DNA of 64,000 nt from an uncultured Campylobacterales bacterium (lineage in GTDB: Bacteria; Campylobacterota; Campylobacteria; Campylobacterales; Arcobacteraceae). Where the stretch lies: NCBI GenBank assembly GCA_947494995.1, contig CANLWY010000004.1, positions 62,001 through 126,000 of the forward strand, read 5' to 3'. Of this stretch, positions 41,921-63,615 are shown in pieces (the stretch's first letter is position 1; each line of letters starts with the position of its first letter). Below the pieces are notes generated by a model. The model did no database searches, was not told where the DNA came from, and saw only the letters and a list, made by a program, of their open reading frames with translations. The position numbers were made by a program, and so were the translations under genes.

Positions 41921-43063
41921 TTAATATTTACATCTTTTTTCATACTCTTCAGCAGTAAAATCAACTAAATAAGCTTCTTTTATTCCTTTTTCTAAAAGTT
42001 TATTTATTACTTTTTGTCTCTCAGTTTCAGAGTCATAAGGTCCTGAATATATCTCTATTCTATTTTTAAAATCTCTACAAAGTGATACATTTTTATCAAT
42101 TTCTAGTATCTTATCTAAGTAAGATTTATATAAATTACCTTTAATCGTTGCAACATTGATAAATGGTAAAAATTGATTTATACTTTTATTTTCATTTTCG
42201 AATTCATTTTTATTAAACTGATCTTCTTCAACTTCTTGTGATTCTTCAATAGTCTCTTCTTTAACTGGATCTTGTATTTCCGTTTTTTGATTTTCAATAT
42301 CTTCTAAAAATCTTTTTTTCTCTTCTTCAAATTCTGCTTTTAATTCTTCTTGTAATATTAAAAGTGCTTTTTGCTCTTTTTTAAGTGCTTCTTGTTGCTG
42401 GGTTAATAATTTTTTTTCTTCTTCAATTTTTGCTAATCGCTCTTCTTCTTTTTTCTTTTTTTCATTAAGAGCTTTTTCTTCTGCTTCTTTCTTCTTTCTT
42501 TCTGCTTCTTTTTTCTTTTTTTCTTCTTCTTTTATTCTTTTTTCTTCTGCTTCTAACTCTTCTTTATTCATTATCTCATGCTTAGTAAGCATTTTAAGTT
42601 TTTTATTTAGTTTTGATTCATCTATATTTTTATCTTTAAAATCTATTTTTATTTCAGTTTTTTTCTCTACAACTTTTTCAGCTTGTTTTACTGGTTCTGG
42701 ATCAAAGAAACCTGTAAAATACATAATTGTTCCTGCTGTAAGAACAATAAAAAGAAAAATTACAATTGCTATTAATATTTTATAAATTTTTGGTTGTTTT
42801 TTTTGTACAGGAAGAGGCTCTTCATTGTTTTTATTTGATTCATTAACTAGCTCTTTTTCATCATCTCTATCTTCATTTTCAATAACGTTTTCTTTTGATA
42901 TTTCTTCTTTATCTGTAGTATCTTCTTGATTTTCAATTGGCTCCAATGATTCTTCATCATCTTTTATTGATAGCTCCACTAAAGCTTCTTCTGGTGAAAC
43001 ATCATTACTTGATGCTTCTAATCCAAGCTCTTTAATTATCTCTTCATCACTTTTTTCAGCCAT
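41921..43063 (-). CDS. Membrane-anchored coiled-coil protein with C-terminal SPOR-like domain
   Basis: 380 residues, type II topology: very acidic cytoplasmic tail (1-90), one membrane helix (94-116), periplasmic Lys/Glu coiled coil (about 165-260), and a C-terminal SPOR-like domain (300-372) with IYSGPYDSETERQKVINKL (338-356), the typical G-P-F/Y turn followed by an amphipathic helix. Cys329 and Cys378 flank the domain. It is the third gene of the flgG leftward operon, 3 bases after the basic protein. A wall-binding role around the flagellum is inferred. Confidence 0.7.
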   Translation of the reverse strand: MAEKSDEEIIKELGLEASSNDVSPEEALVELSIKDDEESLEPIENQEDTTDKEEISKENVIENEDRDDEKELVNESNKNNEEPLPVQKKQPKIYKILIAIVIFLFIVLTAGTIMYFTGFFDPEPVKQAEKVVEKKTEIKIDFKDKNIDESKLNKKLKMLTKHEIMNKEELEAEEKRIKEEEKKKKEAERKKKEAEEKALNEKKKKEEERLAKIEEEKKLLTQQQEALKKEQKALLILQEELKAEFEEEKKRFLEDIENQKTEIQDPVKEETIEESQEVEEDQFNKNEFENENKSINQFLPFINVATIKGNLYKSYLDKILEIDKNVSLCRDFKNRIEIYSGPYDSETERQKVINKLLEKGIKEAYLVDFTAEEYEKRCKY

Positions 43064-43066
43064 TTG

Positions 43067-43504
43067 TTACTCTTCTTCTTTGATTTTTTTTCTTTTTTCT
43101 TTCTGTTTTTGAAGGATTTTCTCTCTATTTCTTTTGTAGTACTCTCTTCTATACTCTTTTAGTTCTTCTTTTTTCTTTTCTCGATATTCTTTATCGTATT
43201 CTAATCTTTTTTCTCTATTCTCTTTGTAATAAGTTTGTTTTTTTTCTCTGTATTCTTCTATCTTCTGAATAATTTGTTCTTTTCTATCATCTATATGGGC
43301 TTTTTGCTTTTTTGCAATAAGTTTAATATTTTTAGAAAAATTTTCAGAGTTTAATTCTTCAGAATAATCAATAGCTTTATAATCTTTATATTTGTTTTTT
43401 TGAGTTTTTTCTTTACTTTTTAAATAATAATCTCTTTTTTTCTTTTTATGTTTGGCAAAATTTGCTTCACGAAGCTTTTTTAACTCTTCTAAATTCATTG
43501 ACAT
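43067..43504 (-). CDS. Very basic Lys/Arg/Tyr-rich helical protein
   Basis: 145 residues, no signal or membrane segment. Nearly all helical and strongly positive, with repeating (E)-x-R-E-K-(K) and Y-K-E-N-R-E-K stretches (residues 80-145). I do not recognise the family; the repetitive composition limits any homology call. It lies between flgG and the membrane SPOR protein on the same strand, 28 bases after flgG, so it probably belongs to the flagellar regulon. It could pair with the acidic cytoplasmic tail encoded next door. Confidence 0.6.
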   Translation of the reverse strand: MSMNLEELKKLREANFAKHKKKKRDYYLKSKEKTQKNKYKDYKAIDYSEELNSENFSKNIKLIAKKQKAHIDDRKEQIIQKIEEYREKKQTYYKENREKRLEYDKEYREKKKEELKEYRREYYKRNREKILQKQKEKRKKIKEEE

Positions 43505-44470: not shown

Positions 44471-44839
44471 ATGAGAATTTTAATAGTTGATGATAGTTCC
44501 ACTATGAGAAGAATTATAGGTAATGTCGTTATGCAGCTTGGTTACACAAAGGAAGATTTTGATGAAGCTGAAGATGGTGTAAAAGCGTGGAAACTGTTAA
44601 GTGACTCTCAGTATGATATTATTTTAACAGACTGGAATATGCCTAATATGAATGGACTTGATTTAGTTAAGAAAGTTAGAGCTGAAGGTAACCATCAGAA
44701 AACACCAATTATTATGATTACTACAGAAGGTGGTAAAGGAGAAGTTATTACAGCACTTAAAGCGGGTGTAAATAACTATATTGTTAAACCATTTAATGCT
44801 CAAGTTTTAAAAGAAAAACTTGATGGAGTTTTAAAATAA
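44471..44839 (+). CDS. cheY: Chemotaxis response regulator CheY
   Basis: 122-residue single receiver domain. The acidic pocket is Asp7/Asp8, the phosphorylation site Asp54 (LTDWNMP), switch Thr84 (MITTE), aromatic Tyr103 and Lys106 (YIVKPF), all as in CheY. When phosphorylated it should bind the switch and change rotation. The next gene, 28 bases on, encodes a CheZ-type phosphatase. Confidence 0.95.
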   Translation: MRILIVDDSSTMRRIIGNVVMQLGYTKEDFDEAEDGVKAWKLLSDSQYDIILTDWNMPNMNGLDLVKKVRAEGNHQKTPIIMITTEGGKGEVITALKAGVNNYIVKPFNAQVLKEKLDGVLK

Positions 44840-44867: not shown

Positions 44868-45941
44868 ATGAGTATGAGTCAAGAAGAGATTGAATCTTTG
44901 ATGAATGGTTTAGACTTTGAAGATGATGCTTCATCTTCTGAAGCTGAAGTTGAAGAGATTGAACCTCAAGGAAATATGTCTGAAGATGATATAAATGCAT
45001 TAATAGCCGAAACTGAAGATGCCTCTAATAATGAAGAGTCTTCAAGTGAAGAGAGTGTAGATGATATATTAAATAGTTTAGAGAATGCGGAAGTTGAAAA
45101 TACATCTTCAGAAGAGACAAACATTGATGATATTTTAAAAGAGTTAGAGAATGATGAAGCAAATTCAACTGTTGTAGAAAATTCAGACCCTGAAGTTGAG
45201 ATAGCTACACCTGCAAATGAAAATTTAGAAACTACAGTAGAAGAAGCAAGTTTGGAAGAAACTATTGAAAGTTCTAATGAAGAAGTTTTAAATGATGATA
45301 TAGATGATCTTTTATCATCTATAGATGGAGTAGTAGAAGATTCTCCATCCGTTGCACCAGTAGCCGATAAAAATGATGTAAAAGATATTGATGAACAGAT
45401 AAGTTCTGGTGTTTTTCCTCTTCCTGTTGAAGAAGATACAAAAGTTGTAAACCAATTGAGTGCAGTAGCTAATGATTCTGAAGAAAAAGCTACAAAAATT
45501 TTTGATGTTTTAAGTAATATTCTTGACTATAATAACGCAATACAAAATGATGTTAAAGCTTTAAGTAGCTTTAATGAAAGACAAATTGCAATGTTAAGTT
45601 CATTAAGTCAAAAATTTCCAAATATAGAAGCTTTTAGTAAGAATTTAGAACATGCTCAAGAAATGAGTGATTATATTAATGATGCTAATGAAAAGTTAAA
45701 TGATGGTAATACAGAAATTTTTCAAGCAATGGAACTTATGCAATATCATGATATCAATAGACAAAAAATTGAAAGAGTTATGTCTGTAATTAGAAAACTT
45801 ACTATTTATTTAAACAATCTTTTTGAAGATGATAATAATAGAGCAGAAGTCTCTGTAGCAAATCATATTCATGGTGATAATACAGAAGATTTAGTTGGTG
45901 ATGATGATTTAGAAGCATTAATTGCAGAATTTAACAAATAA
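44868..45941 (+). CDS. cheZ: CheZ-like CheY-P phosphatase with multiple CheY-binding-type peptides
   Basis: 357 residues. The C-terminal helical domain (about 200-320) carries YHDINRQK with Asp295 and Gln299, the D-x3-Q active site of CheZ; the layout resembles the H. pylori CheZ-like protein HP0170. The last residues DDLEALIAEFNK look like the CheZ C-terminal CheY-docking peptide. The N-terminus SQEEIESLMNGL is close to the CheY-binding end of FliM (consensus SQ-x-EIDALL). Similar acidic D/E-I-D-x-L motifs recur near 39-48, 64-71, 86-93 and 144-150. Between them lies an acidic, low-complexity linker. Confidence 0.75.
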   Translation: MSMSQEEIESLMNGLDFEDDASSSEAEVEEIEPQGNMSEDDINALIAETEDASNNEESSSEESVDDILNSLENAEVENTSSEETNIDDILKELENDEANSTVVENSDPEVEIATPANENLETTVEEASLEETIESSNEEVLNDDIDDLLSSIDGVVEDSPSVAPVADKNDVKDIDEQISSGVFPLPVEEDTKVVNQLSAVANDSEEKATKIFDVLSNILDYNNAIQNDVKALSSFNERQIAMLSSLSQKFPNIEAFSKNLEHAQEMSDYINDANEKLNDGNTEIFQAMELMQYHDINRQKIERVMSVIRKLTIYLNNLFEDDNNRAEVSVANHIHGDNTEDLVGDDDLEALIAEFNK

Positions 45942-61257: not shown

Positions 61258-61648
61258 AAGTCTTTTATTAGTTTCTTTATTCTCTTTAAATTTATATTCA
61301 ATAGAGGTTATTATAACAACTTCAAAAATAAATTTTAAAGAGATCATTTCTTCTTCAAAACTAACAGTTTCTAATGTTGAAAAGGTAAAAAAATTTTGTA
61401 TTCCAATGAAAGTTTCAGATTTTACAAAGAAAAAGTTTATAGCAAAAAGGTATCTTAAAAAAGGAACTGTCCTTTGTGCAAAAGATGTTCAAGATTACGA
61501 TAAAAATAAAGAATCAGTAGTTTTTAATTTTGGTTCAATACAGATTGAAAGACCAGGAAAAGTTATTTTTGAAAATGATAAATATATAAAAATTAGAAAA
61601 TTAGATGGAAAAATTGAAAAAATTTATAAAGATGGAAGATTACAATGA
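61244..61648 (+). CDS. flgA: Short FlgA-like P-ring assembly protein (SAF-type domain)
   Basis: 134 residues from the ATG at 61244, behind GGAGG at 61228-61232; a start at 61226 would lie inside that site. Signal peptide (about 1-18, ending LYS). KFIAKRYLKKGTVLCAKDV and IRKLDGKIEKIYKDGRLQ match the FlgA/SAF C-terminal domain, but the N-terminal part is minimal. FlgA is the periplasmic chaperone for the P ring. The stop overlaps flhF by 4 bases. Confidence 0.72.
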   Translation: MLRLKSLLLVSLFSLNLYSIEVIITTSKINFKEIISSSKLTVSNVEKVKKFCIPMKVSDFTKKKFIAKRYLKKGTVLCAKDVQDYDKNKESVVFNFGSIQIERPGKVIFENDKYIKIRKLDGKIEKIYKDGRLQ

Positions 61649-62796
61649 ATATGCTCTCTTTTTTAGGTGAAACACCAACTATAGCATTAAGAAATGCACA
61701 AGAAGAGTGTGGTGAAGAAGCAATTGTAATATCAACAAAAAAAATATCGAGTATACAAGATGGAAATAAGGATATGTATGAGGTTGTTGTAGCACTTGAA
61801 GATGAACAGCAGCCATTAAAACAGCATACAAAAGAAGTATCTACAATTCCACAAGTAAAAAATGAACCAAGTTTTAATGCAAAAGTGTATGATTTTAAAG
61901 AAGAGATTCTTAAAATGCAAGATGCAATCATGCAAGTACAAAAATCTCTTTGGGATCCAAAAAGTCAATTGTATGATTTAACTATACCTCCTGAGTTTGT
62001 AGATATATATAATCTTTTTGAGCAAAATGAGTTTGATCAAGAGATGACTTACACTATTATGAAAAAAACTATTAAGCAACTACCTGTTGCTCTTAAAGCA
62101 AATCCGAAAAAAGTAAATGATTTTTTTAAATTAGTTTTAAGAAGAATTATTCCAATTAAGCAAGAAATCCCTTTAAGAAAACATCAAAGAAAAATTATAA
62201 TGATGGTGGGACCAACAGGAGTAGGAAAGACTACAACTATTGCGAAACTTGCTGCAAGATATGCTTATAAGTTAGGGCAAAACTATAAAGTGGGGATTGT
62301 AACTTTAGATTCATTTAGAGTTGGTGCAATTGAACAATTGCAGGCTTATACAAATATTATGAGACTACCTTTAGAAGTAGTTAAAAAACCAGAAGATTTA
62401 GTTGAAGCTCTTCTTAGGCTTAAAGATTGCAACTATATTTTTATTGATACTGCTGGTTCATCACAATATGATGTTGATAAAATTGAACTTATAAATGAGT
62501 ATCAAGAAAGAGTTAATGAACTACCTATTGAGAAAGTTTTAGTTCTTCCTGCAAATGTAAAGCACAGCGATTTAATAGATATTTATACAAACTATTCAAG
62601 ACTAAATATTGATTTTTTAACTTTTACTAAGTTAGATGAAACGAAAACTTTTGGAAATCTTATCTCTTTTGCTCATAAGACAAAAAAATCAATAACTTAT
62701 TTTTCTATAGGTCAAAATGTACCTGATGATTTAATAGTTTCAGATTCAAGTTTTTTAATTGATTGTTTTATGAATAATGGCTGTGAAAGGAGATAG
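61645..62796 (+). CDS. flhF: Flagellar SRP-like GTPase FlhF
   Basis: 383 residues. A short basic N-terminal domain begins MLSFLGETPTIAL. The G domain has P-loop GPTGVGKT (189-196), LDSFRVGAIEQL, DTAGSS and TKLDETKTFG. FlhF recruits early flagellar parts to the cell pole and sets placement. It is paired with FlhG, which limits flagellar number. The DTAGSS motif is the FlhF version of DTAGR. Coupled to flgA by ATGA. Confidence 0.94.
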   Translation: MNMLSFLGETPTIALRNAQEECGEEAIVISTKKISSIQDGNKDMYEVVVALEDEQQPLKQHTKEVSTIPQVKNEPSFNAKVYDFKEEILKMQDAIMQVQKSLWDPKSQLYDLTIPPEFVDIYNLFEQNEFDQEMTYTIMKKTIKQLPVALKANPKKVNDFFKLVLRRIIPIKQEIPLRKHQRKIIMMVGPTGVGKTTTIAKLAARYAYKLGQNYKVGIVTLDSFRVGAIEQLQAYTNIMRLPLEVVKKPEDLVEALLRLKDCNYIFIDTAGSSQYDVDKIELINEYQERVNELPIEKVLVLPANVKHSDLIDIYTNYSRLNIDFLTFTKLDETKTFGNLISFAHKTKKSITYFSIGQNVPDDLIVSDSSFLIDCFMNNGCERR

Positions 62797-62799
62797 CTA

Positions 62800-63615
62800 T
62801 TGTTTAATGCAATTTCTTCACAAGCTAGTAAGCTTATTAATCTTACAAAAAACAATACTCTTAACTCTAAAACAAAAATAATAACAGTAACTTCAGGAAA
62901 AGGTGGAGTTGGTAAATCTACATTTACTGCAAATATTGCATATTTACTTGCAAAAAGAGGATTTAAAGTAGCAGTAATTGATGCAGATATAGGTTTAGCA
63001 AATATGCAAGTACTCTTTGATGTTAAACCAATATTAACACTTTTTGATTATATTGAAGGACGAAATACTATAAATGAAGTTATTTCGGATACCTCATACT
63101 CAAATGTATCCTTAGTTGCGGGGAAAAGTGGATATCAATATACAAACTTAAAGAATTCTCTTGTTTTAAGTAGAGTAGTTGAAGATATAAGAGATCTAAA
63201 TAGATATGATATTGTTTTGATAGATACAGGTGCAGGATTAAATGAACATGTACAAGAGTTCTTAGCAGTTTCTGATAATATTTTAGCCCTTACAACTACA
63301 GATCCAGCAGCATTAACTGATGTTTATGCTTTAATGAAACTACTCTCAATTGATAAAGAAAAACTACTTTTATGTTTTAATCATACAAGAAATTTTCAGA
63401 TAGGGGAAACAATTGCCAATTCTTTGGTTAATTTAGCTAAAAAAAATAGGTTAAATTCAAATTTTATGGTAAAATATATAGGTAATGTCTCGAGCTCCGC
63501 AAATATTTCTACAACTTCAAGGCTTAGAAAACTATTTGCACATGAATTTGGAAATGATGAAATAACTAAACAACTTCAAAGGGTTATTGATATATTACTA
63601 ATTGATATTAAGTAA
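62800..63615 (+). CDS. flhG: Flagellar number regulator FlhG (MinD-like ATPase)
   Basis: 271 residues from TTG 62800 with AAAGGAG at 62786-62792. The deviant Walker A KGGVGKS (34-40), IDADIGLANMQVLFD and IDTGAGL motifs are intact. The N-terminal SSQASKLINL (7-16) fits the Q-A-x-x-L motif that stimulates the FlhF GTPase. It should set one polar flagellum together with FlhF. Confidence 0.93.
   Translation: MFNAISSQASKLINLTKNNTLNSKTKIITVTSGKGGVGKSTFTANIAYLLAKRGFKVAVIDADIGLANMQVLFDVKPILTLFDYIEGRNTINEVISDTSYSNVSLVAGKSGYQYTNLKNSLVLSRVVEDIRDLNRYDIVLIDTGAGLNEHVQEFLAVSDNILALTTTDPAALTDVYALMKLLSIDKEKLLLCFNHTRNFQIGETIANSLVNLAKKNRLNSNFMVKYIGNVSSSANISTTSRLRKLFAHEFGNDEITKQLQRVIDILLIDIK

Follow-up and report, generated by a model that had tools for sequence, protein, structure and literature searches.

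Candidate CheY-P docking peptides at both ends and along the linker of an Arcobacter-type CheZ

We report that the CheZ-type phosphatase encoded in the window (the whole 64,000-nucleotide stretch of DNA analysed here) carries six short peptides patterned on those that bind CheY-P, one at each end and four in an acidic linker. We consider it moderately probable that these form a tethered array of candidate docking sites that would feed the active site and possibly buffer CheY-P. The docking reading fits because the motifs keep a conserved register, closely match both types of CheY-P-binding peptide and lie in a protein encoded next to a CheY, CheYz, whose docking face is mostly kept. An earlier sequence-only reading of this DNA had the anatomy right, and its interpretation is partly supported by what follows: the evidence bears on docking peptides, while several CheY-P molecules held at once, a buffer and a cooperative shut-off stay at the level of proposals. 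The gene pair concerned is:

44471..44839, plus strand: cheY (CheYz in the Arcobacter literature), 122 aa, Response_reg E 4.5e-29, directly upstream of cheZ.
44868..45941, plus strand: cheZ, 357 aa, a CheY-P phosphatase of the CheZ type whose acidic linker is expanded, matched by NCBIfam and Pfam below their cut-offs.

The open reading frame at 44868-45941 encodes CheZ and forms, together with cheY, a gene pair of the Arcobacter type. Its product matches NCBIfam Phos_CheZ at E 5.1e-37 (127.7 bits, below the curated cut-off of 350) and Pfam CheZ at E 6.4e-4 (20.1 bits, below the curated cut-off of 30.7). Among the aligned orthologues, 46/46 match the NCBIfam model at E <= 0.001 and 32/46 the Pfam model at E <= 0.01; the alignment holds the window's protein and 45 of the 52 other main loci, five having been removed by thinning (L004, L010, L012, L015, L021) and two as fragments (L026, L054). 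A misread frame was ruled out, the same start motif leading to the same end across the 46 aligned sequences. A sequence search of solved structures with the window's CheZ returned a single, irrelevant match. Behind cheY and cheZ come flagellar basal-body genes, identified by reading the sequence without a profile scan. At 41921-43504, adjoining the flagellar locus, the minus strand encodes two strongly charged proteins of 380 and 145 aa, neither of them matched by Pfam.

Family f1, that of the window's genome, is called the Arcobacter family because the window's gene pair is arranged as in Arcobacter; it is what 'family' means in all counts below. CheY lies directly upstream of CheZ in 35 of its 36 loci, the exception being a contig-end fragment. 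Two family genomes (G022, G034) gave no CheZ match, and a FliM match was absent there too; in four genomes of other families (G043, G046, G053, G054) no CheZ match was found at E 1e-5 despite a FliM match. A second, short CheZ-like protein (119-171 aa) occurs in 14 related family genomes (L055-L068), with the C-terminal pattern in 13 of the 14 (exception L057) and the start MTQ[ED]ELDALMAG in L055, L056 and L057; the window's own genome yielded no such paralogue at E 1e-5.

The catalytic part of the protein comprises two features:

45444..45827, plus strand: CheZ helical hairpin, residues 193-320, with AlphaFold2 helices 193-249 and 254-320.
45750..45764, plus strand: catalytic D-x3-Q, D295 and Q299 (DINRQ), invariant in 46/46 aligned sequences.

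The active pair Asp295/Gln299, already named in the sequence-only reading, is thus borne out by its invariance, and both residues fall within the predicted helix 254-320. In an hhalign comparison this stretch aligns with FQDLTGQ of E. coli CheZ at E 0.0017 with a probability of only 15%; the same comparison with a 17-sequence alignment gave E 0.072. AlphaFold2 run on the 46 sequences produced block mean pLDDT values of 88 to 98 over residues 201-310 within a model that is modest as a whole (mean pLDDT 69, pTM 0.38). In fold comparison of this model the matches listed were generic helical hairpins, and the E. coli CheZ structure was absent from them. Family membership suggests that the protein would be a dimer with phosphatase activity.

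The candidate docking peptides, with their BLOSUM62 scores against two templates only, the E. coli FliM peptide (SQAEIDALLNG) and the E. coli CheZ peptide (SQDQVDDLLDS), are as follows:

44877..44909, plus strand: FliM-like peptide at the N-terminus, SQEEIESLMNG (residues 4-14), scoring 38 with E. coli FliM as template.
44979..45011, plus strand: linker copy 2, residues 38-48, SEDDINALIAE, score 18, predicted helix 39-54.
45045..45077, plus strand: linker copy 3, residues 60-70, SEESVDDILNS, score 35 against the E. coli CheZ peptide, predicted helix 64-72.
45111..45143, plus strand: linker copy 4, residues 82-92, EETNIDDILKE, score 21, predicted helix 86-97.
45288..45320, plus strand: linker copy 5, residues 141-151, LNDDIDDLLSS, score 31, predicted helix 145-150.
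45897..45938, plus strand: C-terminal CheZ-type peptide, residues 344-357, GDDDLEALIAEFNK, pattern match at residue 347.

The N-terminal peptide is the top-scoring window of the entire CheZ protein, in agreement with the earlier proposal of a FliM-type N-terminus; for comparison, the FliM of the window's own genome (SQDEIDALLDI) reaches 36 with whichever E. coli template suits it better. At least four linker copies of an acidic pattern had also been proposed, and these we recovered with the pattern hydrophobic-(D/E/N)-x-hydrophobic-hydrophobic, in the same register as the known peptides, starting at residues 41, 63, 85 and 144. Together with the N-terminal peptide (38) they make up the five best windows of the protein (copy 3, 35; copy 5, 31; copy 4, 21; copy 2, 18), and copies 3, 4 and 5 are closer to the E. 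coli CheZ C-terminal peptide than to FliM. The C-terminal CheZ-type peptide noted earlier was found as well, though it scores just 11 against the E. coli templates (rank 16), so that it is recognised through its pattern and its place and not through its score. AlphaFold2 places a short helix at every motif (residues 5-13, 39-54, 64-72, 86-97, 145-150 and 345-356) and two further linker helices without a motif (132-136 and 170-179); the rest of the linker is of low confidence.

How far such matches could arise by chance depends on their strength. Windows scoring at least 28 number three in CheZ as against six in 137,330 aa of other proteins, FliM being one of the six. Shuffled sequences yielded two linker windows at a score of at least 30 in 0/4000 cases, at 28 in 1/4000 and at 26 in 8/4000, which rules out composition as the source of the strong copies. 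At low thresholds the score test is weak, owing to the abundance of D, E and S in the linker: the observed count was met by 303, 58, 25 and 54 of 1500 shuffles at thresholds of 16, 18, 20 and 22. There, composition explains many of the matches and the weak copies are not set apart. Copies 2 and 4 score within the reach of shuffles, and their support therefore comes from conservation. In a sample of 414 proteins drawn from 464 kb of the genome, CheZ among them, no protein but CheZ has five motif hits within 150 aa, the runners-up having three. A FliI-like export ATPase, identified by reading (L229:3366-4667, equivalent to G000:C4:133366-134667), begins MDIDSLLNAIDS, which closely resembles linker copy 5 (DIDDLLSSIDG), possibly by chance.

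Both end peptides are widely kept. The N-terminal motif is present in every family protein with an N-terminus (35/35) and in 17/17 orthologues from other families of the order, the start codon of each orthologue being set at this motif where it is present. The C-terminal pattern occurs in 34 of the 35 family proteins having a C-terminus (L025 departs) and in 17/17 outside the family. A wider sample was drawn from named loci: of 302 that were confirmed, the best 80 were taken, and each of these carries the active-site pattern; as this was one of the two search patterns, a locus could be found without the N-terminal pattern. In these best 80 of 302, MTQEEL opens the protein in 80/80 and MTQEELD in 78/80, and the C-terminal motif is likewise present in 80/80; three of the CheZ proteins, from records titled Campylobacterales or Helicobacter, are the same as three among the 17 other-family orthologues. 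The sampled Campylobacterota CheZ thus generally have a FliM-like N-terminus. E. coli CheZ (MG1655), the sole CheZ examined from outside the Campylobacterota, has no such motif and starts MMQPSIKPADEH. One record, titled Arcobacter sp. isolate NORP14 (L221), holds a short-type CheZ with an MTQEELDALM start and zero linker copies; either its title or our family limit may be inexact, and the record is possibly misnamed.

In the passages covered of a study of H. pylori CheZ, the N-terminal region is described as having no known function, its deletion (residues 1-39 in the strain table) left phosphatase function intact, and deletion of the C-terminus (the last 12 residues in the strain table) abolished phosphatase activity (PMC11237671). 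The last of these results, as reported in those passages, indicates that a peptide of the C-terminal type matters.

The linker copies are conserved on a narrower scale. In the 16 members of the genus, window included, the four copies form conserved islands in a fast-changing linker: motif columns have an entropy of 0.56 bits against 1.73 for the remaining linker, random placements of four blocks were as conserved as the motif blocks in 9/20,000 cases and rigid shifts in 0/153, and the sequence between the copies is replaced and changes in length. Copy 2 is the best conserved of the linker copies in the genus; L016 deviates at the position of copy 4, and L017 lacks copy 5. Across the family, 35 linkers contain 110 copies as against 10.1 in shuffles, with at least one copy in 33/35, at least two in 30/35 and at least three in 23/35, and some member of 14 of the 18 genera has at least two. 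The fragment L026 was omitted from this count, its genome being represented by the fragment L054. A stricter first pattern did not admit F at position 0 or V at +3, both of which are allowed by the relaxed pattern behind the 35-linker count. The relaxed pattern also takes IDG-type hits beside another copy (L002, L003, L004 and L028), which we do not claim as copies; with these four dropped there remain 106 copies, and the linkers with at least one, two and three number 33, 29 and 23 of 35.

Maintenance of motif number in orthologues had been named in advance as a test of the multiple-docking idea, and the outcome is mixed. Within the genus the four linker copies are indeed kept. Across the family their number ranges from 0 to 5, with none in 2/35 (L025 and L027) and one in 3/35 (L023, L030 and L034), and outside the family they are almost wanting: none in 17/17 orthologues under the stricter pattern and none in 76 of the 80 named loci (best 80 of 302), the other 4/80 having one copy.

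There are signs that the linker grew by local duplication. A direct DNA repeat joins two neighbouring copies:

45060..45093 (over copy 3) and 45126-45159 (over copy 4), plus strand: direct repeat of 34 nt, 79% identity.

The spacing between copies 3 and 4 is 66 nt, or 22 codons, so that the two look like a 66-bp tandem duplication and the array seems to have grown locally. A DNA repeat search in L016 and L018 placed no repeat on linker copies. At the protein level, the CheZ at L016:1300-2478 has an additional linker copy, VSDDDINELLAQVDE, whose likeness to the neighbouring MSEDDINELIAQTED hints at local duplication.

The presumed docking partner and substrate is the adjacent CheYz. Its closest solved relatives are 3gwg and 3h1e ('Chemotaxis protein cheY homolog', E 6.3e-47), and it retains, in E. 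coli numbering, W58, T87, K92, Y106, V108, K109, F111 and K119, whereas residue 91 is G in place of K. The stretches around W58, K92 and K119 are kept in 34/34 family CheY sequences compared (the CheY at L030 lay outside the comparison). Of 98 receiver matches in the window's genome, six lie in open frames of at most 150 aa, and among these standalone receivers CheYz alone combines W58, K92, Y106, V108 and K119 (C4_215019 being taken from an internal start). In the parts covered of PMC9321776, CheYz is put forward as the FliM-binding CheY of Arcobacter, and K91 (E. coli numbering) is given as a conserved residue of that CheY class. Our CheYz alignments differ from this: position 91 holds G, and the lysine that is conserved stands at 92.

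An AlphaFold2 run on a congener's CheY-CheZ read-through fusion gave no sign of docking; it dealt with one chain, unphosphorylated CheY, another sequence and a shallower alignment, and its coordinates were unreadable. The motif blocks had pLDDT values of about 46, 75, 47, 58, 56 and 56-67 in the fusion, against 73, 84, 69, 68, 64 and 66-71 in the window's CheZ alone. This lower confidence means that the run cannot count for docking, and the differing sequence and alignment, the unphosphorylated CheY and the unreadable coordinates make it weak evidence against. Other observations that weigh against the docking reading are the varying copy number, the share of low-scoring matches that composition explains, the low template score of the C-terminal peptide, the two linker helices without a motif, G at CheYz position 91 and the phosphatase function kept by H. 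pylori CheZ without residues 1-39.

Both the FliM peptide and the E. coli CheZ peptide grip the alpha4-beta5-alpha5 face of CheY. In the working that we propose, CheZ would end the CheY-P signal, its helical hairpins forming a dimer and D-x3-Q being its active site, and its six helix-forming peptides (one per end, four in the disordered acidic linker) would dock the same face of CheYz-P. Capture by any tethered peptide would raise the concentration of CheY-P beside the two active sites, leading to dephosphorylation. With up to 12 peptides per dimer against two active sites, the array would serve first as a capture antenna, giving a lower effective Km and a faster shut-off; were CheZ abundant, CheY-P would also be withheld from FliM, and the array would act as a buffer. 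The motifs and their conservation, the active-site residues, the adjacent CheY with most of its docking face and the signs of linker growth are observed; binding, simultaneous occupancy, the antenna or buffer effect and which of these effects dominates are inferred. In an illustrative calculation with assumed values (Kd 25 uM, 1.5 uM dimer, 3 uM CheY-P), the share of CheY-P held would be 40% with six sites per chain and 10% with one, and over the values tried six-site holding spans 5 to 92%. The calculation thus makes buffering possible, dependent on the concentrations in the bacterium.

The simplest competing explanation is that just the two end peptides dock CheY-P, the linker copies being duplication relics or weak accessory helices on a CheZ that behaves in the ordinary way. 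Two end copies are the usual state outside the family, where linker copies are nil in 17/17 orthologues and in 76/80 named loci (best 80 of 302); their number drifts from 0 to 5 within it, and shuffles reach the scores of copies 2 and 4 (18 and 21). Relics should, however, erode together with the sequence around them, so that the conservation of the copies in 16 genus members, amid sequence that is replaced and changes in length, counts against this explanation; we think it unlikely.

A slightly less likely explanation again is that some protein besides CheY is the partner of the motifs, chiefly of the N-terminal one. Candidates are an assembly factor that recognises EIDAL-type peptides, such as FlhG, and Campylobacterota-specific chemotaxis proteins such as ChePep or CheO; the motifs would then serve the polar placement of CheZ or a link to the motor. 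FlhG can bind the FliM EIDAL motif, this peptide type is common to CheZ and FliM, and flhF- and flhG-like open reading frames, read from the sequence without a profile scan, lie downstream of cheZ in the window at 61645-63615. The persistence of phosphatase function in H. pylori CheZ without its N-terminal region leaves room for another role, as far as the source was covered (PMC11237671). ChePep makes H. pylori CheZ polar, and C. jejuni CheO pulled down CheZ, FliM, FliY and CheA, not CheY, according to the parts covered of the papers concerned (PMC7750401 and PMC11237671 for ChePep; PMC9665402 for CheO). Against a partner other than CheY, the template closest to linker copies 3-5 is the CheY-binding peptide at the C-terminus of E. 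coli CheZ. In H. pylori, moreover, the polar localisation of CheZ reportedly maps to the central domain. Finally, the array could be a decoy or sponge: it would chiefly vie with FliM for CheY-P and tune the sensitivity of the motor, and would change the dephosphorylation rate little. It is of the same peptide type as FliM, whose motif is carried by 47/47 FliM loci read, and the assumed values of the illustrative calculation give the 40% versus 10% holding just mentioned. The effect would depend, however, on the concentrations and affinities in the bacterium, and a phosphatase that keeps its substrate near the active site should mainly destroy it; we regard this as very unlikely.

Beyond the docking array itself, a broader picture can be drawn of a multivalent CheY-P receiver in the Arcobacter-type CheZ: an array grown by duplication of a 22-residue cassette, a dimer holding many CheY-P molecules, a processive and switch-like shut-off, CheY-P gathered in CheZ clusters and the Campylobacterota N-terminal peptide as the ancestral seed. 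We put this forward tentatively, as possible and rather doubtful; if true, it would explain the role of the N-terminal region in H. pylori CheZ.

The docking reading offers a concrete and cheaply tested explanation of why Campylobacterota CheZ has its N-terminal region, to which the passages covered of PMC11237671 ascribe no known function. If the linker copies bind CheY-P, signal lifetime would be tunable by duplication of a 22-residue cassette, with the active site unaltered. CheZ is a possible bacterial case of a signalling enzyme that works through arrayed short linear motifs, for which eukaryotes provide the better-known examples. Within the titles, abstract starts and passages of the open-access literature that were covered, neither a FliM-like N-terminus nor linker docking motifs are described for CheZ; an earlier mention in papers on H. 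pylori CheZ-ChePep or ChePep is possible.

Among known systems, the Arcobacter CheYz-CheZ gene pair, part of a large flagellar locus, has an arrangement matching that in the window; docking motifs are not described for its CheZ in the parts covered of that paper (PMC9321776). The CheZ proteins of H. pylori and other Campylobacterota resemble the window's CheZ in their N- and C-terminal peptides (Helicobacter species are among the 80 loci, H. pylori itself being absent), and those outside the family differ in a short linker, mostly without linker copies. E. coli CheZ shares the D-x3-Q stretch, and its C-terminal peptide SQDQVDDLLDSLGF has the pattern of the window's linker copies 3-5. It has a helical hairpin fold and a single docking peptide per chain and, unlike the window's CheZ, is without the N-terminal motif. 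FliY of Bacillus subtilis is a CheY-P phosphatase that also bears a FliM-like N-terminal CheY-P-binding peptide; it is a part of the motor with one docking peptide and a CheC/CheX-type fold unrelated to CheZ. FliM itself shares the SQxEIDALL core, as a single N-terminal EIDAL peptide, whereas the N-terminal version in CheZ has M in place of the last L of EIDALL.
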